IMG/VR virus record: IMGVR_UViG_3300042505_001173
Location: 62,001 to 126,000 of that record
Reading direction: 5' to 3' (one strand)
DNA: 64,000 bases
Source: a virus
The notes under the pieces are model-generated. The model worked only from the letters and a program-made list of their open reading frames with translations. It was not told the DNA's origin and did not search any database. The position numbers were made by a program, and so were the translations under genes. This document shows, piece after piece, positions 934 to 62,006 of this stretch (positions within the stretch are counted from its first letter, which is position 1; every line of letters starts with the position of its first letter).

Positions 934-2955
934 TCAAAAATTAATTATTTCATGATCATCCGTGAGTTTATCCGCCCTAACATACCCATCAGTTGTTAAA
1001 AACAAATGATTACCCGTTACTTCAATTTTTACACCCGTATCAAACTCCAACTTATACATTTTTTCAGCGTTAGATTTAAGTAAGTTTTCATAAACGTTTT
1101 CTACAACATCTTCTTCGAAGATCTGACTAGCTTCGTTATATGATAATACATTTTCACCAATTTTAATATCTTTTAATATTTTTTTTGTCCCATCAACTAA
1201 TGTTATATTAGTCTCACCCGATAAACATTCATCAACTACCACCATTTGAAATTGATTTATGAGGAGTGGATAGTTTTGTAATGTTTGCCACGTTGTTACG
1301 ATATGATCATAATCAATGCTTGGGTTACCTGCATGGAAATGTGAAACATCTAATTGTAACGCTGTAAATTGCTTAATTGTTTGAGTTATTAACGATGTAG
1401 CTGGTACGATCGTTAACGTTTTACATCCTTGCTGTTTATATTTATCAACAAGAACGGCGTTCAAAATGGTGTTGTGTGTGATAATACACCCATCAGTTAC
1501 ATATAAATGATCAACATCATCAATGTATATGCATTTAGTACGCTCTTTACCCCAGTACTCTATTGATTTAACTCGTCTGTTTATTTTTTGGGTATGGTTT
1601 TGTATAGTGTGATGGTATTTGATATAATTTAACTTTTTTTCATGTGACGTGAAAAATATATCATGTATTCTGTGGGACATTGTCAATGAATGAGTTCTAC
1701 GATCCTCAGATAATTTATACCAGTTACTTAAAACACCTCCTTGCATAATTACCATTTCTGATACTTGTTCAACAAGCTTAGCGTTTTGTACAATATGAAC
1801 AGTAGTGCTACCTGAAGCTGATAGTGATCCAGTCACGTCACACATACCTTGTAAAAACGATAATCTATCTTTAGCAGCGCCGAACACATATTCTTTAGGT
1901 ATGCGGTAATCGTTGCGCATATTTTGCTCTAAAAAACTGACTAGTTTCTCACTCTGTTCAGTGGTCGGTGTTAAATACGCTCTTACCTTTAACCCGTGAG
2001 TACGTTCTACTTGTAAGTCAATATCATATTTTTTAAAGTGTTTGGTAAAATCGTGTATACTGTAGCCTTTATCATATAATTTTTTATTCGGTTTGAAATA
2101 GACTCTTTCACCGTCAAACGATATAAATGGTACTGTACTACCAAACGTATATGGATCAACATCATATATTTGAGGTTCAAGATCAATTGGTACAGGAAAC
2201 GTTGGAATTAACACGCGGCTATTCTTCTTTATTTGCTCCATCAATTCTAAGGTAGTGTGCGTTTTATACTTTGAATGTTTACTGTAACGGTGATAACTTA
2301 AATTATATACGAACCATAAATGATCAGGGTGCGCGTATGTAATAGATCCGTCATACATTGTTATTTTATACACATCTGTGATACCTTGATCGTGCGTACT
2401 TAATACTTTAGCTATTGTATTTTTAGGTGTTAGTACGTATTCACCCTTTTTAATTGCACCCATGGTAGTCCAACCAGTTGGTGTCATAACTTTACAGCGT
2501 CTTGGTTGAGCTTTTCCAAAACCTGTTCCAGCTAATGCGATACCACTGCCAGCAGCTAACATTGTATTTGCAGCTTCGATTTGATGAGCAGCTAACTTAT
2601 AAGGTGTACCGGTTTTTGGATTTGTAATATGACTAAAATAATCTTCATTAACATCGGGCTGTACATCGTAAAATGTACCAGATCTATTATCGACAATATC
2701 AATATTATTATATCCTAATTTTCGTAGTGATTTGATAACCTCTGTCATCAAATATACATATGTATTTCCATTATTATAGAAAAATTTGATCTTACCATCC
2801 CATGAACCTAATTGAAATAGGGTCATATACTGGTACCCGTCAACAAATAACGCGTAACGGTCACATAAAAAGTTTATATGATCTGCATAGATACCTGAAA
2901 AATTACAATTGATCTCATCAGAGATAGTAACCCTAACTTTAGTATTGATAATCAT
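934..2955 (-). CDS. uvsW: UvsW helicase, N-terminal part with one complete intein and one N-intein
   Basis: 673 residues with four segments. Residues 1-148 are UvsW N-terminal sequence ending in Walker A GTGFGK. Residues 149-495 are a contiguous intein. Residues 496-576 are helicase again, starting with the Thr that completes Walker A (GK/T), then VTTWQTL (T4 UvsW has GTWQT), ending VVVDE. Residues 577-673 are an N-intein beginning CLSGETNI with a block B TGNHLFLT. The other half of the DECH box is in the gene ending at the window edge. T4 UvsW unwinds branched DNA and helps switch replication modes. Both interruptions fall in catalytic motifs, so neither half can hydrolyse ATP before splicing. 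Nearest neighbour upstream is the uvsY-like gene. Confidence 0.92.
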   Translation of the reverse strand: MIINTKVRVTISDEINCNFSGIYADHINFLCDRYALFVDGYQYMTLFQLGSWDGKIKFFYNNGNTYVYLMTEVIKSLRKLGYNNIDIVDNRSGTFYDVQPDVNEDYFSHITNPKTGTPYKLAAHQIEAANTMLAAGSGIALAGTGFGKAQPRRCKVMTPTGWTTMGAIKKGEYVLTPKNTIAKVLSTHDQGITDVYKITMYDGSITYAHPDHLWFVYNLSYHRYSKHSKYKTHTTLELMEQIKKNSRVLIPTFPVPIDLEPQIYDVDPYTFGSTVPFISFDGERVYFKPNKKLYDKGYSIHDFTKHFKKYDIDLQVERTHGLKVRAYLTPTTEQSEKLVSFLEQNMRNDYRIPKEYVFGAAKDRLSFLQGMCDVTGSLSASGSTTVHIVQNAKLVEQVSEMVIMQGGVLSNWYKLSEDRRTHSLTMSHRIHDIFFTSHEKKLNYIKYHHTIQNHTQKINRRVKSIEYWGKERTKCIYIDDVDHLYVTDGCIITHNTILNAVLVDKYKQQGCKTLTIVPATSLITQTIKQFTALQLDVSHFHAGNPSIDYDHIVTTWQTLQNYPLLINQFQMVVVDECLSGETNITLVDGTKKILKDIKIGENVLSYNEASQIFEEDVVENVYENLLKSNAEKMYKLEFDTGVKIEVTGNHLFLTTDGYVRADKLTDDHEIINF
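937..1227 (-). mobile_element. N-half of split intein in the UvsW DECH box (97 aa)
   Basis: Starts at Cys577 (CLSGETNI) after VVVDE and ends at the ORF stop (DHEIINF). It holds block A and block B (TGNHLFLTTDGYVRADKL). The tail GYVRADKLTDD is close to the N-half of the known NrdJ-1 split intein as I remember it. Partner: C-half at 571-675. Confidence 0.87.
1471..2511 (-). mobile_element. Contiguous intein in the UvsW Walker A motif (347 aa)
   Basis: Inserted between GTGFGK and T. It begins with Ala (AQPRRCKVMTPTGW) rather than Cys or Ser, has a block B HPDHLWF, and ends IITHN before Thr. Such Ala1 inteins are known and splice without the first thioester step of standard inteins. The middle carries a weak LAGLIDADG-like segment (FLQGMCDVTGSLSASG), suggesting a homing endonuclease domain that may be degenerate. 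Boundaries restore an intact UvsW Walker A. Confidence 0.85.
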
Positions 2956-2967
2956 TTATAGTCCTGT

Positions 2968-3429
2968 TTATGGAATTAACCAATCATCGTTCGATGCGAT
3001 AATTAATCTTGTTAGATTGTTTAATGCGTACCCTAACTTATCATAACTACTCACAACACGTTTGAACTGGTCATGAAGTTCTTCCACTTTAAGATATTTT
3101 TCTAGCATGTCAAGGTACACTGGATCATGCTTAATATATTCTTCTTTATCTTTTGGTGTTAATACCCGATCCATTTTTTCAGTATATTTTTGCCATAATT
3201 TACCTTTTGTTGAATCAAGAACTAATTTTACATATTCTTTAATGTATTTTACTTCTACTTCTTTTTCATGGTAATAGTTGGCCCAACCGGATTGTTCTGC
3301 ATTCACAACACTAATAGGTTTACCAGATATTCTTAAAAGATCTTCAACTTCGTCCAAATATGATGTGTATACATTGATAACTTTATCTAAATTATTCAAA
3401 TCTTTCTTAATCAAATCGAGAGCTTTCAT
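2968..3429 (-). CDS. uvsY: UvsY-like recombination mediator
   Basis: 153 aa, mostly charged and helical, between uvsX and uvsW, where T4-like phages keep uvsY near uvsW. T4 UvsY is a 137-aa mediator that loads UvsX on gp32-coated ssDNA. Here the similarity is in size, helical charged pattern and position; I see no diagnostic motif, so identity is inferred. The ATG at 3429, preceded by AAGG, is preferred over the in-frame GTG at 3438. A perfect 22-nt palindromic hairpin separates it from uvsX. Confidence 0.55.
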   Translation of the reverse strand: MKALDLIKKDLNNLDKVINVYTSYLDEVEDLLRISGKPISVVNAEQSGWANYYHEKEVEVKYIKEYVKLVLDSTKGKLWQKYTEKMDRVLTPKDKEEYIKHDPVYLDMLEKYLKVEELHDQFKRVVSSYDKLGYALNNLTRLIIASNDDWLIP

Positions 3430-3449
3430 TACCTTCACCGTATAACGAA

Positions 3450-3471
3450 GAGTGCTCCTTAAGGAGCACTC
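3450..3471 (-). terminator. Perfect hairpin between uvsX and uvsY-like gene
   Basis: An 11-bp perfect palindrome (GAGTGCTCCTT and its complement) 12 nt downstream of the uvsX stop. The minus-strand continuation TTCGTT is only partly T-rich, so it may be a leaky terminator or an mRNA-stabilising hairpin. Confidence 0.5.
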
Positions 3472-3483
3472 AGTTTAAAATGC

Positions 3484-4620
3484 TTATTCTACAATAAAAT
3501 CATCATCATATCCAGACATATCTACAGCTGTCGAATCTACTAATGGTATCGATACACCTATATTAGCTGGTACAGCTTCTGGAATTTCTTCAAGCTCAGC
3601 ATCATCTTTTGAAATTTGCAAGAAAACATTTGTTTTTTCATTACATTTTTCAATAATTCTATCAGCATGCTGTGCAATATCTCTAGCGTACCATTTATTT
3701 TTCTCTTCGCCGTCGATATAAACATACGACCCAGCTTTTTTCAATACACCTAATCCAACAGCAACATCAGATAAACCACTTAATGGATTCATACCGGTAT
3801 CGTATGGTACTTCTACTGTAACTGTTTGATAAGGTTTAGTAAACCTTGTTTTGAATGCTTCGCATTTCATTCGAATACCAGCGATACCTGCTTCAGCTGA
3901 CTCACCTTTCAGTTTTAATTTAGTAATTAAAATAATTTGAGACAAGCTGTATCTAATAGCGCCATTAACTACCCAAGCGCCTTCACCTTGCATTAACTGA
4001 TCACGTGATGCTGCATAGACCTGTTTAGTAACGATCATGCTAATATTCAATCCCTTAACATCGCCGACGAAGGTTTTAAGCATTTGTTTAATTTGTTTTG
4101 GGTGTTGCCCCTGATCAGCATTAGCATCACCTTTCTCGTATTTGTCTGCTTCTGTTTCAGTCTGTAACATATCACAGCTATCGATAGCGATCAATACCTT
4201 AGGTGCATCTACACCATCTCCGTATTCGCTACGATAACCTTTAATATACGAGCTTACAATTTTAATTACTTGAGGTATAGTTACTACTTGTACAGGCATA
4301 TAATACGGGTCTTCTGTATCAATACCAATTGCTGACGCAAATTGATCATCAAAAGCGCCCTCACTATCTAGTAATAGAATAAATGCGCCTTCCTTTTGAG
4401 CTTGTTTAACAATATTTGCTAATAAGAAGCTTTTACCAGCTCCTGATGGACCTGCTAAACCGGTCACACGACCTTGAGGTATACAATGGTTAAAATCACC
4501 GCTTACGATTTTATTTAAAACGTAATTACCAGAACCAAACCAATATCTTGGAGGTGAAGTATCAGTACTTACACCTTCCATCTTGCTGATGGTTTTTTTG
4601 AAATCTTTTAAAAAATCCAT
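3484..4620 (-). CDS. uvsX: UvsX RecA-like recombinase
   Basis: 378 aa. RecA/UvsX fold with Walker A GPSGAGKS near residue 57, Walker B VLIAIDS, and an IVTKQVYA segment. UvsX forms filaments on ssDNA and drives strand exchange for recombination-dependent replication and repair, working with gp32, UvsY and UvsW, all encoded nearby. The ATG at 4620 lies 5 nt after AGGTGA and is preferred over the in-frame GTG (4629) and ATG (4626). The C-terminus is acidic. An elaborate two-tier hairpin lies 36-98 nt upstream of this start. Confidence 0.93.
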   Translation of the reverse strand: MDFLKDFKKTISKMEGVSTDTSPPRYWFGSGNYVLNKIVSGDFNHCIPQGRVTGLAGPSGAGKSFLLANIVKQAQKEGAFILLLDSEGAFDDQFASAIGIDTEDPYYMPVQVVTIPQVIKIVSSYIKGYRSEYGDGVDAPKVLIAIDSCDMLQTETEADKYEKGDANADQGQHPKQIKQMLKTFVGDVKGLNISMIVTKQVYAASRDQLMQGEGAWVVNGAIRYSLSQIILITKLKLKGESAEAGIAGIRMKCEAFKTRFTKPYQTVTVEVPYDTGMNPLSGLSDVAVGLGVLKKAGSYVYIDGEEKNKWYARDIAQHADRIIEKCNEKTNVFLQISKDDAELEEIPEAVPANIGVSIPLVDSTAVDMSGYDDDFIVE

Positions 4621-4655
4621 TGTCATCACCTATAATATACATAATGTTAAATTAA

Positions 4656-4718
4656 GGAGATTCAATGACCGAGTCTTTTAATAACGTATTATTAAAAATC
4701 ATTTCTCATTGAATCTCC
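4656..4718. other. Two-tier stem-loop upstream of uvsX
   Basis: A 13-bp perfect outer stem (4656-4668 with 4706-4718) encloses a second 9-bp perfect stem (4676-4684 with 4689-4697, loop CGTA). No T-tract follows on the minus strand. It lies in the 5' untranslated region of uvsX and could be an mRNA structure or a protein-binding site. On the plus strand the same DNA holds an AAGGAG site followed by a 14-codon reading frame. Confidence 0.6.
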
Positions 4719-4767
4719 ATTAAGAGACATTAAGGAATAATATGTCGCAACGACAATTATAGATTAA

Positions 4768-5046
4768 CTATGCTGCAACAATATCTGTATTATTCCAAAA
4801 CGCTAACGGTAAGAATACTGCATCTGATTTCAAGTACTTGTGTAACCCTTGATATACGTACAGGTTCAATCCGTCTGTAGTTAATGCTGTAGTTAGATCA
4901 GCTGTATAAGCTGGTGTTATTAGTTTCAAAACTGCTGCTACAGATTTATTATCAATTGTTATGTTTTTATAATTATAAAAAACATACCACGAATAATGTT
5001 TAATAACACAATCTAAAATGCTAAAATCTGGTGTAGTCATGTTCAT
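4768..5046 (-). CDS. Hypothetical 92-aa protein
   Basis: No recognisable family. It is rich in Tyr, Leu and Thr, with no signal peptide. Its start overlaps the stop of the preceding ORF by 4 nt (ATGA), so the two are probably translated together. Coupling is the main support that it is real. Confidence 0.6.
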   Translation of the reverse strand: MNMTTPDFSILDCVIKHYSWYVFYNYKNITIDNKSVAAVLKLITPAYTADLTTALTTDGLNLYVYQGLHKYLKSDAVFLPLAFWNNTDIVAA

Positions 5047-5384
5047 GCATGTACCTCTGGTTGGTTAACTACTGTGTAGTTAGTTGAATTAGGAATCACT
5101 AAAATATTATTATTAGGGAACACCGCTTTAAATTTAGCAGCAGTTTGTGTCGCTAATGATTGGTATTTCGATGATGATAATTCACCACGATTAATGCGTA
5201 CTATGATTACAGAACCAGTTTTTAAACATAAAACTTTAGGCTGATCGCAACATCCTTCAGATGCTTCTGAACAATCCTCATCACCATCGTCAATAACATC
5301 GACGATATCAACAGTAACTGCCGTTGATGAGTTAGAAGATTTTGAGGATGAATTTGAATTAGTATTTGATTGGGTCTCCGCCAT
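5043..5384 (-). CDS. Hypothetical 113-aa protein with Ser/Asn-rich N-terminus
   Basis: Residues 5-22 are a low-complexity Ser/Asn/Thr stretch, followed by an acidic Cys-containing part (GDEDCSEASEGCC) and a more ordered C-terminal half. A clear AGGGAG ribosome binding site precedes the ATG. An AATAAATA late-promoter-like box lies upstream on the minus strand, so it may be a late gene. Function unknown. Confidence 0.6.
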   Translation of the reverse strand: MAETQSNTNSNSSSKSSNSSTAVTVDIVDVIDDGDEDCSEASEGCCDQPKVLCLKTGSVIIVRINRGELSSSKYQSLATQTAAKFKAVFPNNNILVIPNSTNYTVVNQPEVHA

Positions 5385-9264: not shown

Positions 9265-9720
9265 TTATTTTTTAACATGATTTAAATAATACCCAACCCA
9301 ATCCCCCATAAAGATGTTTTGCGCATCTTTAAGTGAAATTTTTCCCCTACAAATATCTTTTTGCATTTTACGTTCTAACACATCTTTATTATAAGCAGTA
9401 ACATTTACACTTTTGTATGGTTGAGGCCACAAATTAGCTTCACTAGATGGTGCACCACCACTCGATAAAGGTAAAAGATGATCAAGCTCATAATGAGATA
9501 AATTTGTATCTGCATACCCGTATTTTTTAATTAATTTTTTTTTCAATTTGTTGGTGTACGATACCGGTGGACGTACCGTACTTGTCCAATTTGGTACACA
9601 AATTGTTTGATGAATGTTATCCTGTGTTACATCAGGGTTAATATCTCCAGGAGTGTAGATGTTTGGTACAGCTGACACGGTTGAAGATACAAATATCCCC
9701 AAGATTAATAATTTTTTCAT
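9265..9720 (-). CDS. Secreted HNH endonuclease-like protein
   Basis: 151 aa. Residues 1-17 are a textbook Sec signal peptide (MKKLLILGIFVSSTVSA, cleavage after VSA). The mature part has an HNH core: YELDHLLPLSSGG, then ANLWPQPY, and a downstream NKDVLERKM helix. The fold is known for metal-dependent DNA nicking; secretion would put it in the periplasm or outside. Possible roles are degrading DNA injected by competing phages or salvaging nucleotides. This is inferred; related secreted HNH proteins also occur in bacterial genomes, so recent acquisition from a host is possible. Confidence 0.8.
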   Translation of the reverse strand: MKKLLILGIFVSSTVSAVPNIYTPGDINPDVTQDNIHQTICVPNWTSTVRPPVSYTNKLKKKLIKKYGYADTNLSHYELDHLLPLSSGGAPSSEANLWPQPYKSVNVTAYNKDVLERKMQKDICRGKISLKDAQNIFMGDWVGYYLNHVKK

Positions 9721-11878: not shown

Positions 11879-14800
11879 ATGGGTAAGATGACAGATATTT
11901 TTCAAATTGTCACACCGTCAACACCTACTTCGGTTGTTCAAGACAATCAATTGATGGATACCGGTTACGCTGCAACTAGCAATTACACGTGGTATCAGAG
12001 ACTAATACAAGGTAGTGGTACTAGACTCACACGTTATAACGAATATGACGTCATGGATAACGATGTCGAGGTAGCTAGAGCTTTAGATATTATCGCAGAA
12101 GAAATGACGGGTAGAAATACAAAGACAAGTCTACCAATTGAACTTAAAATTCTAGACGAAAAACATGCTAATACCGAAGATACAATTGTATTAACGTTAC
12201 GCACCGCATGTCACCATTGGTGTAAAATACACGGGTTTGATGCAAATAGATTATTTAAATTATCTAGAAACATGGTAAAATACGGTGATTGTTTCTTTAG
12301 AAAATCATCTAATTTTAAAAAATGGGAGTGGATACCATCAGGTGCGATAGTAGGTGCAATCGTAGATGACCGTGACGTTACAAATGTTTTAGGTTATCGT
12401 ATCCGTACAGATACTAAATCTACTGGTGTAGCTAATAGTACCAGTTCACCTTTTAGAAATGCAGCTGATCATGGTAAGTTTGAGAATGTATCTATTGATA
12501 ACATGGTTGTATTTTCAATAAACGATGATATGTCGGATGCTGCACCATTCGGTGAATCTGTATTGCGTACGGTTTATAAAACACATAAACAAAAAGAATT
12601 ATTAGAAGACGCTATTATTATTTACCGTATACAACGTGCACCTGAACGTAGAGTATTTTACATTGATGTTGGTAAAATGCCTCCACATCGTGTCAAATCA
12701 TACTTAGAAACGATTAAAAATGAAATTAGACAGAAAAAAATACCGTCTAATAATATGAATGGTCAAAGTTCTGTTGATTCTATTTACAATCCTCAGTCAA
12801 TGTTAGAGGACATATTTCTCGCACAAAGATCTGATGGGGTTGGATCAAAGGTTGAAGTACTGCAAGGTGGTTGCTTCTCAATGGATACAAAAGTATCATT
12901 ATTGGATGGTAGAGAACTATCAATTAGTGATATTGAATTAGAATTAGCTGCAGGTAAAGAGCTATGGACATATTCATGCGAAAAGAGTACTGGTAAAGTA
13001 GTACCTGGTATCATTTCTTGGGCTGGTGTTACACGTAAAGCAGCTAATGTTATGCGTCTAACATTTAACAACGGCGAAAGTGTTGTTTGTACACCTGACC
13101 ATCGGTTCTGTGTATACGGTCAAGAATACAAACGTGCACACGAATTTACAATCGGCGATAGTGTTATACCTCTATACCGTCGTAAAGAATGCTTAAACGA
13201 CGATTATCGTCGCGATTATGAACAGTTTTTTGACAATAGTACTAAAACATGGGTTCACACTCATAGAATGGTTGCTGACACTCTTAAAGATACCGCTGTA
13301 AAATATTGGGTGTATAAACCTGAAAAAAGCAACGGTAAATACGAAGTGAGACACCATATTGACTTCAATAGATTTAATAATAGTCCTTCTAACTTGTGTT
13401 TCATGTCATATATAGATCATCGTCATTACCATGCGAAAGTGACTGCAACATTCTTTAGGGATTTAAAGCACTCTAATATTGATGAATATAATAGAATTAA
13501 AGAAGCGAGACATAACTCTATTAGACGGTACTGGGATAACATCACTACTGAACAAATTGAAGCTCGAAGCGCTAAAGCTCGCAAAACTAAAAGTGAGTGG
13601 TCACAAGAACGCAAATCTAACCACAGATTAACAGTATCTAATTCGTTACGAAAATACATTAACGGGTTATCACCGGAACAGCGTGCAGCACGTGATGATG
13701 CATCTCGTAAGCATTTCGGTAAACATGCTAACAGTATTTTTAATGAAAAAATGTTGAATGATTTAGAGTTTAGAGCGCAAGTTTTAGCTAACCGTAGAAA
13801 AGCTTGGACTGATGGAAAACGACAATTGAAAGCTGAGCAGATGTCTGCTCAACAAAAACAACGCCATTCTGACCCTGAATATCAGCGATGGTATAGAAAA
13901 CAGCATCAAGAAAACCAAAAAGTTGTATTTACGCATGATATGTTGAAGTTTGCTATTAATTTAATTAAAGGTAAAACATCTCATCAATTTACGTTAGTTG
14001 ATGTTATTAGAGAGCTTAACGCAAACGAAGAATTAATATCTGAGTTACGTGATTTAAACAAACATAAAAATGTACCAAACTGGAACATTGATGATGGTTT
14101 TACCAGTTCAAATGTAAGAACTATGGTTAAGCAATTTGGTTATGATAGTTGGTATGATTTACGTAAAAATGAAAGTATACACAATCATACAATCGTAAAA
14201 ATTGAGTACTTAGATGATACTGTCGACGTCGGCACGTTAACAATCGATCAAGATGAAGTGCATCATAGTCATCACACCTTCGCGTTAAGTTGCGGGGTGT
14301 TTGTACTAAATTCTCAGCTTGGTGAAAATTCCGATCTGGACTACTTCAGTGATAAAGTATTATGCGGTTTACGTATCCCAAAAGGATGGATGGGCAGACA
14401 CAGAGAAGATTCAGGTGCTGTATTTAACGACGGTAAATTAGGTGCAGCATATATTGAAGAACAACAATTTGCTAAATTCGTTGAAAGGTTACAGGTATAC
14501 GTATCAGCTGTACTAGACTACGAATTCAAATTATTTTTATTTGAAAGTAACATACAAATAGATAACACTATATTTGAAATTGCTTTACCTAAACCATCTA
14601 ACTACGAAAAATACAAACAAGCTGATCTTGATAGTGCTTTATTAGGTACAATTGGTACCGCTGACAGCATTTCATGGTTATCGAAACGTTGGATTGCTAG
14701 AAACTACCTACAAATGAGTGAAGAGCAACTAATTGACAACGAAAACTTGTTGAAACAAGAAAAAGGTATTGATAGTAAAGATAAAACGTTACAATCTATT

Positions 14801-15031
14801 TACGGACCTCAAGCTGAAGGGGATATGGGTGGAGGTTTCGGTGGAGGTATGGGCGGCTTAGGTGGTGATCTCGGAGGTTTTGGAGGTGAATTAGGTGGAG
14901 GTGCTGAAGCAGCTCCGTTTGGTTCAGAAGGAGGAGAAGGTGAAATAGAAGGTTCAGTACCTGCAGAACAAACAGCGCCATTAGGCGGAACCGCTCCCGG
15001 ATCAACTTCAAATGTAGCTTCTCCGCGGTAA
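11879..15031 (+). CDS. 20: gp20 portal protein with intein
   Basis: 1050 codons encoding a 570-aa portal after splicing. N-extein 1-331 has T4 gp20-like segments (TRYNEYDVMDNDVEVARALD, the RIQRAPERRVFYIDVG motif, ending KVEVLQGG). C-extein 812-1050 resumes SQLGENSDLDYFSDKVL, GLRIPKGW. The portal is the dodecameric DNA channel at one head vertex and the docking site for terminase. AGGTGA lies 4 nt before the ATG. The C-terminus is extended by a Gly-rich tail of about 75 residues (GGGFGGGMGGLGGDLGG) absent from T4 gp20. Confidence 0.9.
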   Translation: MGKMTDIFQIVTPSTPTSVVQDNQLMDTGYAATSNYTWYQRLIQGSGTRLTRYNEYDVMDNDVEVARALDIIAEEMTGRNTKTSLPIELKILDEKHANTEDTIVLTLRTACHHWCKIHGFDANRLFKLSRNMVKYGDCFFRKSSNFKKWEWIPSGAIVGAIVDDRDVTNVLGYRIRTDTKSTGVANSTSSPFRNAADHGKFENVSIDNMVVFSINDDMSDAAPFGESVLRTVYKTHKQKELLEDAIIIYRIQRAPERRVFYIDVGKMPPHRVKSYLETIKNEIRQKKIPSNNMNGQSSVDSIYNPQSMLEDIFLAQRSDGVGSKVEVLQGGCFSMDTKVSLLDGRELSISDIELELAAGKELWTYSCEKSTGKVVPGIISWAGVTRKAANVMRLTFNNGESVVCTPDHRFCVYGQEYKRAHEFTIGDSVIPLYRRKECLNDDYRRDYEQFFDNSTKTWVHTHRMVADTLKDTAVKYWVYKPEKSNGKYEVRHHIDFNRFNNSPSNLCFMSYIDHRHYHAKVTATFFRDLKHSNIDEYNRIKEARHNSIRRYWDNITTEQIEARSAKARKTKSEWSQERKSNHRLTVSNSLRKYINGLSPEQRAARDDASRKHFGKHANSIFNEKMLNDLEFRAQVLANRRKAWTDGKRQLKAEQMSAQQKQRHSDPEYQRWYRKQHQENQKVVFTHDMLKFAINLIKGKTSHQFTLVDVIRELNANEELISELRDLNKHKNVPNWNIDDGFTSSNVRTMVKQFGYDSWYDLRKNESIHNHTIVKIEYLDDTVDVGTLTIDQDEVHHSHHTFALSCGVFVLNSQLGENSDLDYFSDKVLCGLRIPKGWMGRHREDSGAVFNDGKLGAAYIEEQQFAKFVERLQVYVSAVLDYEFKLFLFESNIQIDNTIFEIALPKPSNYEKYKQADLDSALLGTIGTADSISWLSKRWIARNYLQMSEEQLIDNENLLKQEKGIDSKDKTLQSIYGPQAEGDMGGGFGGGMGGLGGDLGGFGGELGGGAEAAPFGSEGGEGEIEGSVPAEQTAPLGGTAPGSTSNVASPR
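12872..14311 (+). mobile_element. Intein with HNH homing endonuclease in portal (480 aa)
   Basis: Begins at Cys332 (CFSMDTKVSLLDG) and ends VFVLN before Ser. Block B is TPDHRFCVYG and block F is HHSHHTFALSCG. Between the splicing halves is an HNH core (RHHIDFNRFNNSPSNLCFMS, then YIDHRHYH) and a basic repetitive region (SAKARKTK, RRKAWTDGK) resembling NUMOD-type DNA-binding helices. The penultimate residue is Leu instead of His. The endonuclease looks intact, so the element may still be mobile. Confidence 0.88.
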
Positions 15032-58239: not shown

Positions 58240-58431
58240 ATGAAAGAAGAATATATTACTATTACTGGATCAAACCAAAAATTTAAATTATTATCAAAGA
58301 CAGCTATACCTTTTCATAAAGTACAATTAGTTGTAGAAGACAGTGAAGGTGTACGGTTTGTTTTTACGAGACAAGCAGGCTGCTATATAAGAACAACAAA
58401 ACCGGTAAATGATTACACAGAGGAATCATGA
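58240..58431 (+). CDS. Hypothetical 63-aa protein
   Basis: AAGGAA site before the ATG. Beta-rich small protein (ITITGSNQKFKLLSK...). Overlaps the DNA polymerase start by 4 nt, so translationally coupled to it. Confidence 0.6.
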   Translation: MKEEYITITGSNQKFKLLSKTAIPFHKVQLVVEDSEGVRFVFTRQAGCYIRTTKPVNDYTEES

Positions 58432-61046
58432 CATATATTAGCGCAATTATGAAACGTAACGATAACGGTTTCGTTACAGGTGATGATGTTTTAGTATGGG
58501 AATGCGTGGATGGGAAAAACGTATTAAAAACATACCCAGGTATTTTTAAATTTTATGTTAAAAAAGAAGATGGTCCATATAAAAGTGTATTTGGCGATTC
58601 TCTCGAAAAATATGAATTTGATACATTCCAAGAATTTAGACAAGCAAAAAAATACCTGTTGCAAGAGAAAAAACTCAAATTATATGAATCAGATATTTCA
58701 CCAGATACAAAAGTTTTATCAGCTCACTATTATGAGAAGCCATCTCCAAAACTAAATGTACTACTGTACGATATTGAGGTTGATTACTCCACGTTGTCAT
58801 ATGGAAGTGATTATATAGCTAAAGCTCGAATGGTAGGTAAGGATAAGGAAATTGATACACCATTACATGAAATACGTAACCTTTCACCTAAACAACAATT
58901 ATCAATTGAAGTTTATGATCCTAAAAATAAAAAATGGCAACCATACCCATATTCAAAATTAGCTTATGAAGGTCCTGTAGGGTTCAGTAGTCCTCAAAAC
59001 CCTTATGCACCAATTAACGCAATATCAATTTATAAACAATGGCTTGATAAGTCTATTGTTATGGCAGTACCACCTCCAGGGTTCGATCTTAAAACAGTTG
59101 ATCACTCGTTACATGAATTAACCGAAATTAGATTCTATAAAAATGAAAAAGAATTATTACTCGCATACTTAGATGAGATTGAAGAAGCTAGTGTGCTATC
59201 AGGATGGAATAGTGGTGGCTTTGATGACCCGTATGTAGCGAAACGAGTTGAAATAGTCCTTGGAAATCATCATTTTAAACGGTTAAGTTTCGAAGGTGCA
59301 AACGTACCATTATATCGTGAATTATTCGTTAAAGGCGCTAAGCAATTACGTGTTGATTATAGTGGTCGTATTCAACTAGATTATCTTGAGTTATTTAAGA
59401 AATTTGAAGGTGGTGAACGAGCTAGTTTCCGATTAGAAGCTGTTGCTGAAGATCATTTACCACATCTTAAAAAGTTAACATACCCGGGTACATTAGAACA
59501 GTTATATAGTAATGATTTTAATCATTTCTTACGATACAATATCCGTGATACAGAAATCCTAAAAGGTTTTGAAAATAAGCTAACGTATATCCAGTTAGCG
59601 AATGATATGATTCATTCTAGTACAAACCAGTTTAATCATATATTTGGTACTGTACGTATGGTTGATAATGCAATCGTTAATTATTGCCATTATGAGATTG
59701 ACCGTATTGTACCTGATAGATGGGATACAAAAGATGGTAAAATTCAAGGAGCTTATGTATTATTTCCTCAAAGAGGATTACATAAGTGGATTTGCTCCAT
59801 TGATATTAATTCTCTATATCCATCAGCAATTCGGTCTATTAATATTAGTCCAGAAACTGTTATTGGTCAGTTTGAAAATAATATTAAAGATTGGAATAAA
59901 ATATTTGAAGGTATCGAAGATGATATCACTATTAGGTACGATGACGGTTCATTTGAAACTAAGAAAACACAAGAATGGGTTGATTATTTTGCAGAACAAT
60001 GTTGGGCTGTTAGTGGTTACGGTACAGTATTTACACAAAAAGAATTAGGTATTATTCCATCGTTGTTAGCCAAATGGTATTCTCAACGAAAAGTATATCA
60101 AGCTGAAATGAGAAAATATGTTAAAGAGGCAGAAGCTTTAAAATATGATTTCTCAACAGGTACAGCTGTTGAACGTAAAGATTATGATAAAGATCTTTAT
60201 TTTGAGTTAACAGAAAAAGGTAAGTATTACAACCGGTTACAGTATATTTTCAAGATTAAACTGAACTCAACTTACGGTTGTTTAAGTAACTATAATTTTA
60301 GATTCTTCAGATTAGAATTAGGTGAATCGACAACAGGTACCAGTAGACAAATTCTTAGACATCAATGTAGATATACAAACTATGTAATCGATGGTGAATA
60401 CAATATAGATTTTCCAATTTACGAGAGTATGGCTATTATTGATAACATCAATAAAGAGAACGCTAAGCGGTTAGCTGAAGAAGCTGAGAGTGAATTTGAA
60501 TTTGAAGAAGTGGACGCAGTACATAATGATAGTTTGTCACTAGCTCAGTTAGTTGACTATGAACGTCAAGAATATTATCATGCTAATACAGTAACGCATG
60601 AAATGGCATTAGATGGTCCTGTATTCAAAGGTAAGTTTTCATCGCAGGTAGTAGTGTATGGCGATACAGATAGTGTTTTTTACCAGTCTCTGGTTGACAT
60701 CGACGGAGAAGAAAAAACCATTGAAGACCATTTTAACAATTTAAAGGAAAATGATGATACAATGCTGTTACATTATCCTGATAATGTCGAATATTTGTTA
60801 TTAAACGGTAACTATGAATCCCCATGCATAGCTGAAAAAGAATGGGAATATAAACCAGTAAAAGCAATATACAGACATAAAACCAAAAAACGCATGTATA
60901 GAGTTACAACATCTTCTGGTAAAATGGTAATTGTGACAGGTGATCACAGCATGATGCGTGTGAATGACAATAATGAGTTAGAATCGTTAAAAACTACTGA
61001 TTTACAAATCGGCGATAAAGTAATTGAATTAAATAATAAACTCTAA
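58428..61046 (+). CDS. 43: DNA polymerase gp43, N-terminal part with N-intein
   Basis: 872 aa: 748 residues of family B polymerase and a 124-residue N-intein. Exonuclease motifs LLYDIEVDYS, LSGWNSGGFDDPY and YNIRDTEIL are intact. Polymerase motif A is DINSLYPSAIRS, motif B KIKLNSTYGCLSN, and motif C is cut after YGDTD. Motif C is finished by the next gene (STYF). The polymerase is therefore inactive until trans-splicing joins it to the C-part, giving about 1017 aa (T4 gp43 is 898). Confidence 0.95.
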   Translation: MTYISAIMKRNDNGFVTGDDVLVWECVDGKNVLKTYPGIFKFYVKKEDGPYKSVFGDSLEKYEFDTFQEFRQAKKYLLQEKKLKLYESDISPDTKVLSAHYYEKPSPKLNVLLYDIEVDYSTLSYGSDYIAKARMVGKDKEIDTPLHEIRNLSPKQQLSIEVYDPKNKKWQPYPYSKLAYEGPVGFSSPQNPYAPINAISIYKQWLDKSIVMAVPPPGFDLKTVDHSLHELTEIRFYKNEKELLLAYLDEIEEASVLSGWNSGGFDDPYVAKRVEIVLGNHHFKRLSFEGANVPLYRELFVKGAKQLRVDYSGRIQLDYLELFKKFEGGERASFRLEAVAEDHLPHLKKLTYPGTLEQLYSNDFNHFLRYNIRDTEILKGFENKLTYIQLANDMIHSSTNQFNHIFGTVRMVDNAIVNYCHYEIDRIVPDRWDTKDGKIQGAYVLFPQRGLHKWICSIDINSLYPSAIRSINISPETVIGQFENNIKDWNKIFEGIEDDITIRYDDGSFETKKTQEWVDYFAEQCWAVSGYGTVFTQKELGIIPSLLAKWYSQRKVYQAEMRKYVKEAEALKYDFSTGTAVERKDYDKDLYFELTEKGKYYNRLQYIFKIKLNSTYGCLSNYNFRFFRLELGESTTGTSRQILRHQCRYTNYVIDGEYNIDFPIYESMAIIDNINKENAKRLAEEAESEFEFEEVDAVHNDSLSLAQLVDYERQEYYHANTVTHEMALDGPVFKGKFSSQVVVYGDTDSVFYQSLVDIDGEEKTIEDHFNNLKENDDTMLLHYPDNVEYLLLNGNYESPCIAEKEWEYKPVKAIYRHKTKKRMYRVTTSSGKMVIVTGDHSMMRVNDNNELESLKTTDLQIGDKVIELNNKL
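60672..61043 (+). mobile_element. N-half of split intein in DNA polymerase (124 aa)
   Basis: Starts at Ser749 (SVFYQSLVDIDGEEKTIEDH) right after YGDTD, with block B VTGDHSMMRV, and ends IGDKVIELNNKL-stop. Ser1 inteins at this exact pol site are known in archaeal and phage polymerases. Confidence 0.9.
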
Positions 61047-61064
61047 TTATTCAGGAATTAACAA

Positions 61065-61196
61065 ATGAGTGATTTAAAAATTGAAACTGTTGTTTCTATT
61101 GAAGACTTAGGGTATGTCGACGATTGGGTATACGACCTTACAATGGAAGATACAAATATTCCATATTTTTTTGGTAATGGTATATTAGTACATAAC
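61065..61196 (+). mobile_element. C-half of split intein in DNA polymerase (44 aa)
   Basis: VYDLTMEDTNIPYFFGNGILVHN before Ser: block F and block G are complete with the canonical His-Asn end. No endonuclease gene lies between the halves. Confidence 0.9.
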
Positions 61197-62006
61197 AGTA
61201 CATATTTCACAGTACCAGCAGATACGAAAGAACAAGCAATTAAATTTGCTGATGCAGTTGCTGAAGCAGTAAACGACTCATATCCAGAATTTATGAGAAA
61301 GGCATTTAGATGTCAACCAGGGTATGATTTGCAAGTTAAATGTGGACGTGAAGTTGTAAGTGACCATGGGCTATTTGTTGAGAAAAAACGATATATCTTA
61401 CATGTTGTTGACAATGAAGGTGAAACTGTTGACAAAATGAAGATTATGGGTCTAGATATCAAAAAGACAACATTACCTAAAATAATATCAGCACAGTTAA
61501 CAGAATTCATTAAACGTTTATTACGAGGTGAAGAGTGGAATGATATTGCAACAGATATTGTAAACTATAAAGAAGAACTAATGAAGTTCGATAATTTATT
61601 AGAAGTAGGTTTACCAAAAAACGTTAATAATGTTGAAAAATATGATATGTCGTATAAGATCGATGGTGAGAAAGCGAGACTTCCAGGTAACGTTGCTGCA
61701 GCGTTACATTTCAATATCAGATTAAAAGAAAACGATGATAATGATACAGAATTAATAACATCAGGTACAAAAATTAAAGTTTATTACTTAAAAAACAAGA
61801 TGTTAAACAAATTTACTTCAATAGCATTACCATCTGATATAGAACACATTCCAGAATGGTTTATGGAGCAGTATGTACCATTAATCGATAAAGATAAGCA
61901 ATTATCGAGGTTAGTAGACAATCCATTACAGAACATACTTAAAGCTATCAATGTAAATGTACCAACAGCACAATCAGTGCATGCACAAGAACTGTTTAAT
62001 TTTTAG
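61065..62006 (+). CDS. 43: DNA polymerase gp43, C-terminal part with C-intein
   Basis: 313 aa: a 44-residue C-intein, then 269 residues of polymerase beginning STYFTVPADTKEQ, including the KKRYILHVVDNEG (KxRY) motif and the thumb. It starts 18 nt after the stop of the N-part, in the same frame, behind an AGGAAT ribosome binding site. The last residues (AQELFNF) may be the clamp-binding peptide, as in T4 gp43. gp45 follows directly. Confidence 0.95.
   Translation: MSDLKIETVVSIEDLGYVDDWVYDLTMEDTNIPYFFGNGILVHNSTYFTVPADTKEQAIKFADAVAEAVNDSYPEFMRKAFRCQPGYDLQVKCGREVVSDHGLFVEKKRYILHVVDNEGETVDKMKIMGLDIKKTTLPKIISAQLTEFIKRLLRGEEWNDIATDIVNYKEELMKFDNLLEVGLPKNVNNVEKYDMSYKIDGEKARLPGNVAAALHFNIRLKENDDNDTELITSGTKIKVYYLKNKMLNKFTSIALPSDIEHIPEWFMEQYVPLIDKDKQLSRLVDNPLQNILKAINVNVPTAQSVHAQELFNF

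Follow-up and report, generated by a model that had tools for sequence, protein, structure and literature searches.

A predicted HNH-bearing class 1 intein in the portal channel loop, and the recurrent occupation of the clip domain of T4-like portals by its family

The window analysed here is a stretch of 64,000 nucleotides of the IMG/VR virus record IMGVR_UViG_3300042505_001173 (positions 62,001 to 126,000), and contains a T4-like portal (gp20) gene with a 480-aa insert. Judged by its sequence, this insert is a class 1, HNH-bearing intein with intact active-site residues. It is very probably a cis-splicing intein of the clip-to-stem channel loop, which homes with co-conversion of its flanks, and it belongs to a family found at 11 points of the clip domain of T4-like portals.

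The portal open reading frame (ORF), 11879-15031, is an uninterrupted frame of 1050 aa. It matches Pfam PF07230 (Portal_T4) over residues 51-331 (E 2.5e-75) and PF14890 (Intein_splicing) over residues 340-791 (E 1.1e-9, over the cut-off), and the TIGR01445 (intein_Nterm) match starts exactly at residue 332, which is base 12872. The intein (CFSMDTK...CGVFVLN) spans 12872-14311, is inserted at LQGG/S and is followed by a serine codon at 14312-14314; the sequence-only reading had placed a 480-aa intein at this point of gp20, and the profile matches confirm it with exact coordinates. Portal matches of other phages are split into two alignment pieces with the intein left out between them, and the spliced protein contains the Portal_T4 domain and also matches T4 gp20 structures. 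The guanine-plus-cytosine content, 36% in the intein vs 38% in the portal, is uninformative on the origin of the intein.

In an alignment with 43 relatives, the splicing residues C1, T74, H77, H468 and N480 and the HNH residues H161, H162, N170, N174, H183 and H187 are invariant, which bears out the earlier description of the nuclease as apparently intact. The window copy shows C1 with a TxxH block, N480 followed by Ser+1 and a Hint fold, as in class 1 inteins, and its blocks F and G terminate in HTFALSCGVFVLN. The HNH motif of a homing endonuclease is present at residues 161-187; PHROG HNH families match the intein with E values from 1.8e-5 to 5e-4, and the Pfam HNH_3 match is under its cut-off. 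The AlphaFold (AF2) model of the intein shows a predicted local distance difference test score (pLDDT) of 89, and in Foldseek its splicing part resembles the Ssp DnaB, Mtu RecA and PhoCDC21 inteins, the best match being the Ssp DnaB mini-intein (E 7.8e-6). The model of the full precursor has a predicted template modelling score (pTM) of 0.45, and therefore no domain placement is taken from it.

IMG/VR was scanned twice with the window intein. The first scan gave 10 relatives and the second 521, from which the 80 best were retained; this similarity-ranked survey is not a frequency estimate. Nearly all the relatives examined reside in T4-like portals, and 107 loci with the family in such portals were tabulated: 21 show two inteins per portal and two show three. 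In-silico splicing and alignment to the T4 fragment, with T4 numbering from one MAFFT alignment, define 11 insertion points: after T4 residues 316, 320 (two neighbouring points), 328, 330, 337, 339, 341, 353, 354 and 357. The clip domain of T4 gp20 comprises residues 279-358, and its channel loop, residues 350-359, may contact DNA (PMC4493910). All 11 points are inside this domain, between T4 residues 316 and 357, and the window's site is T4 353/354. Inteins usually favour functional, nucleic-acid-handling sites, and insertion in a DNA-contacting channel loop fits this preference. The portal had been considered an unusual host in the sequence-only reading, a view that does not hold against these 107 loci and the portal inteins described in cluster C1 mycobacteriophages (PMC5050341). 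The survey of T4-like portals at the window's site proposed in the same reading gives 43 distinct portals occupied there. A broad portal survey contained no occupied site, and its ranking by the uninterrupted N-part makes a frequency unobtainable from it. Among INPHARED phages, a search for portals containing this intein retrieved a single phage, LR756508, which is huge and uncultured and has its inteins at other sites; the open-licence papers searched do not report inteins in T4-type portals. In this phage (L300, LR756508.1, 484 kb), a T4-like portal at about 1027-5190 contains three inteins, at PYGK/S, at KQL/T in the stem and at EGK/S in the tunnel loop region. The portal of L069 (ORF from 3462) has, besides an intein at the window's site, another small one in its wing region (ALETY/S), and the portal intein of L057 (ORF from 3225) is the only one of the family with a +1 Cys (FFA/CGNEGRG).

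Empty sites were located by the ends of hidden Markov model matches; a regex search had missed many portals. The closest portal relative, L252, whose N-part is 89% identical to that of the window portal, shows an uninterrupted LQGG-QQLGENSDLDYF where the window has the intein. All 43 distinct portals occupied at the window's site have Ser at +1 (43/43), and the 104 distinct intein-free portals have Thr in 51, Gln in 29 and Ser in three. In the window's own portal group, none of the 28 intein-free portals has Ser; the residue is mostly Gln, also in the empty sisters. Phylogenetically independent pairs usually agree, 6/6, on Ser with the intein (median p 0.03). Site 328, by contrast, has Ser in 107 of 113 intein-free portals. 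Between the window and L252, 10 of the 24 bases up to 12 bases from the junction differ, vs 8 of 186 farther out (p 1.4e-6), and all the junction differences are synonymous except the +1 codon, TCT in the window for CAG in L252. At point 330, the +1 Ser of the occupied L291 is encoded by TCA and that of three empty relatives by AGT. Because Ser tracks occupancy and the differences cluster at the junction, co-conversion is the simplest account, and the intein probably brings its own +1 serine through the co-converted flank, a process known from the homing of T4 introns (PMC2988022). The chances appear about even that a clade specialised in the portal clip loop invades sites lacking the +1 residue, that homing carries the Ser codon and that the mature portal residue stays changed. 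Three intein-free portals, L176, L219 and L222, show Ser at the window's site and are possible scars of a lost intein.

A related intein occupies another point of the portal, the MPRR/S site, which shows three alleles: L010 contains a 386-aa HNH intein, L002 contains the same intein minus the nuclease part and L005 is empty. In the portal DNA around this site, L010 and L005 are 97-100% identical, counted per 30 bases. Since these portals are nearly identical and yet differ in having the full intein, one without HNH or none, the family has moved recently, by gain or loss. The HNH motif is present in none of the 14 inteins shorter than 300 aa and in 67 of the 73 longer ones. In the splicing-domain tree the inteins cluster by site (15 label changes vs a shuffled mean of 51.7), as expected of site-specific homing. 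Together with the empty L252, these alleles and the site-wise tree strongly support mobility of the family, as the sequence-only reading had suggested, and for the nuclease of the window copy the evidence is its sequence.

Three points weigh against a splicing and homing intein with flank co-conversion in the window. The first is the penultimate residue, which is Leu and not His. The penultimate His helps Asn cyclisation and is usual, not universal, in class 1 inteins. Among 87 distinct relatives, His is present in three and Lys in 54, non-His residues (K, F, C and others) totalling 84; since only 3/87 have it, its absence is characteristic of the whole family, and there are published phage class 1 inteins that lack it (PMC5050341). 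The second point is that L252, and not the window, could be the one with the recoded junction. The main rival to co-conversion takes the junction differences as escape mutations of L252 against the nuclease, and nearly all of them are synonymous, over a span close to a typical nuclease-site length; this explanation is possible but doubtful, since it leaves unexplained the +1 Ser of the occupied portals against the Gln of most empty portals of the group, and the Gln of the empty sisters looks ancestral. The third point is the approximately unbiased (AU) test, in which a shared origin of the window intein and those of the nearest portals is not rejected (p 0.10), so that its vertical descent is possible; the claim of horizontal transfer is therefore limited to identity contrasts. 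A splicing intein with a dead nuclease, inherited vertically and lost from L252, would be consistent with this result and with the nearest portals, L253-L259 (61-65% identical), which contain an intein at the window's site too, several of these inteins being shortened (197-344 aa). We consider it unlikely, because every HNH residue is intact and the splicing domain of the window intein is much more like that of inteins in distant portals (70% identical, with the portal at 37%) than that of inteins in near portals (45%, with the portal at 63%).

A regulatory switch, in which splicing would be conditional and would set the time at which the portal ring forms and the head is assembled in the infected cell, is improbable. 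Insertion in a terminase and DNA contact region, the repeated occupation of the same domain and the tuning of the splicing rate of a phage intein by non-His penultimate residues (PMC5050341) are in its favour, but the patchy presence, the common empty alleles and the intein-free sister portals are parasite-like. Retention of the insert in the mature portal as a permanent structural domain would suit the frame that is open throughout the ORF and is hardly credible: the intein blocks are complete, L252 lacks the insert exactly, and twelve inserts of 480 aa each are implausible for a channel with a width of about 28 angstroms (width from PMC4493910).

For the preferred reading, a homing intein with flank co-conversion, we infer splicing, cleavage and co-conversion of the window copy as follows. 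The portal ORF would be made as a single precursor chain of 1050 aa, and the intein would excise itself by an N-S shift at Cys1, transfer to the +1 Ser and cyclisation of Asn480, giving a 570-aa portal able to form the ring; it is reasonable to infer that unspliced portal would block head assembly. The HNH domain would cut intein-free portal genes at the window's site, and the break would be repaired with the intein-bearing copy as template, which would bring in the intein and a short flank including the +1 Ser codon. The family, specialised on the portal clip domain, would be kept there by a succession of homing events and of losses, either of the nuclease part or of the entire intein. The portal of T4-type phages is a hotspot in which one essential ring protein receives one intein family at about 11 points over 42 residues, in many uncultured phages, and portal-based phage surveys and annotation may overlook or split intein-bearing genes. 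The family provides splicing domains that naturally lack the penultimate His, its natural full, nuclease-less and empty alleles are material for studying homing, and the system offers a direct test of whether inteins import their +1 residue.

Table 1. Parts of the intein-bearing portal gene in the window.
Feature	Coordinates	Strand	Evidence
N-extein, portal residues 1-331, ending ...VEVLQGG	11879..12871	+	PF07230; phrog_213 portal
Predicted intein, 480 aa, C1 to N480	12872..14311	+	PF14890, TIGR01445; AF2 model; Foldseek
Splicing block A, CFSMDTK, Cys1 nucleophile	12872..12892	+	C1 invariant in 43 relatives
Splicing block B, TPDH (TxxH), intein residues 74-77	13091..13102	+	T74, H77 invariant
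HNH motif HHIDFNRFNNSPSNLCFMSYIDHRHYH, intein residues 161-187	13352..13432	+	Invariant HNH residues; PHROG HNH families
Helical region 3' of HNH, presumed DNA recognition part	13433..14179	+	AF2 secondary structure all helix
Splicing blocks F and G, NHTIVKIEY...HHTFALSCGVFVLN, penultimate Leu	14183..14311	+	H468, N480 invariant; penultimate-residue census
+1 Ser codon TCT; CAG (Gln) in empty relative L252	14312..14314	+	Sequence comparison
C-extein, remaining portal including stop	14312..15031	+	Aligns with T4 gp20 residues 357-508

Other genes of the window also show inteins. A UvsW-like helicase is present in pieces at 1-2955 on the minus strand, with an in-frame intein starting with Ala in its P-loop (GTGFGK/AQPRRC...ITHN/TILN) and an apparent split intein in its DE/CH box, whose N-half ends ORF 934-2955 and whose C-half starts ORF 1-675; an 83-aa ORF (672-923) is located between the two halves. 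A family B DNA polymerase extends over two ORFs at 58428-62006 on the plus strand, split by an intein at YGDTD/S...VHN/STYF which resembles the cysteine-less Aes123 PolB1 split intein of T4-like Aeromonas phages. A small protein encoded at 9265-9720 on the minus strand begins like a signal peptide and contains an HNH-like motif, ELDHLLPLSSGG...NLWPQ; it is possibly an exported nuclease.

Among known systems, the PORT inteins of cluster C1 mycobacteriophages (Kelley et al. 2016, PMC5050341) are likewise located in a phage portal; only six cases are listed, all of one cluster, in portals that are not T4-type as far as known, and the comparison is by description and not by sequence. The nearest cellular relatives of the window intein in the genome scan are the GyrB and GyrA inteins of bacteria and archaea, and the GyrB site AGG/S is similar to the portal LPGG/S; however, the gyrase inteins are mostly 24-39% identical, retain the penultimate His and form a separate clade in the tree. 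The dCTP deaminase intein of cyanophage vB_AphaS-CL131, shown to self-excise (PMC6293099), is a distant HNH-type relative (25.8% identity over 284 aa) which differs in its host protein and in its +1 Cys. The mobile td intron of phage T4 likewise shows endonuclease-driven homing and co-conversion of flanking coding sequence (PMC2988022), but it is an RNA intron and its enzyme is of the GIY-YIG type.
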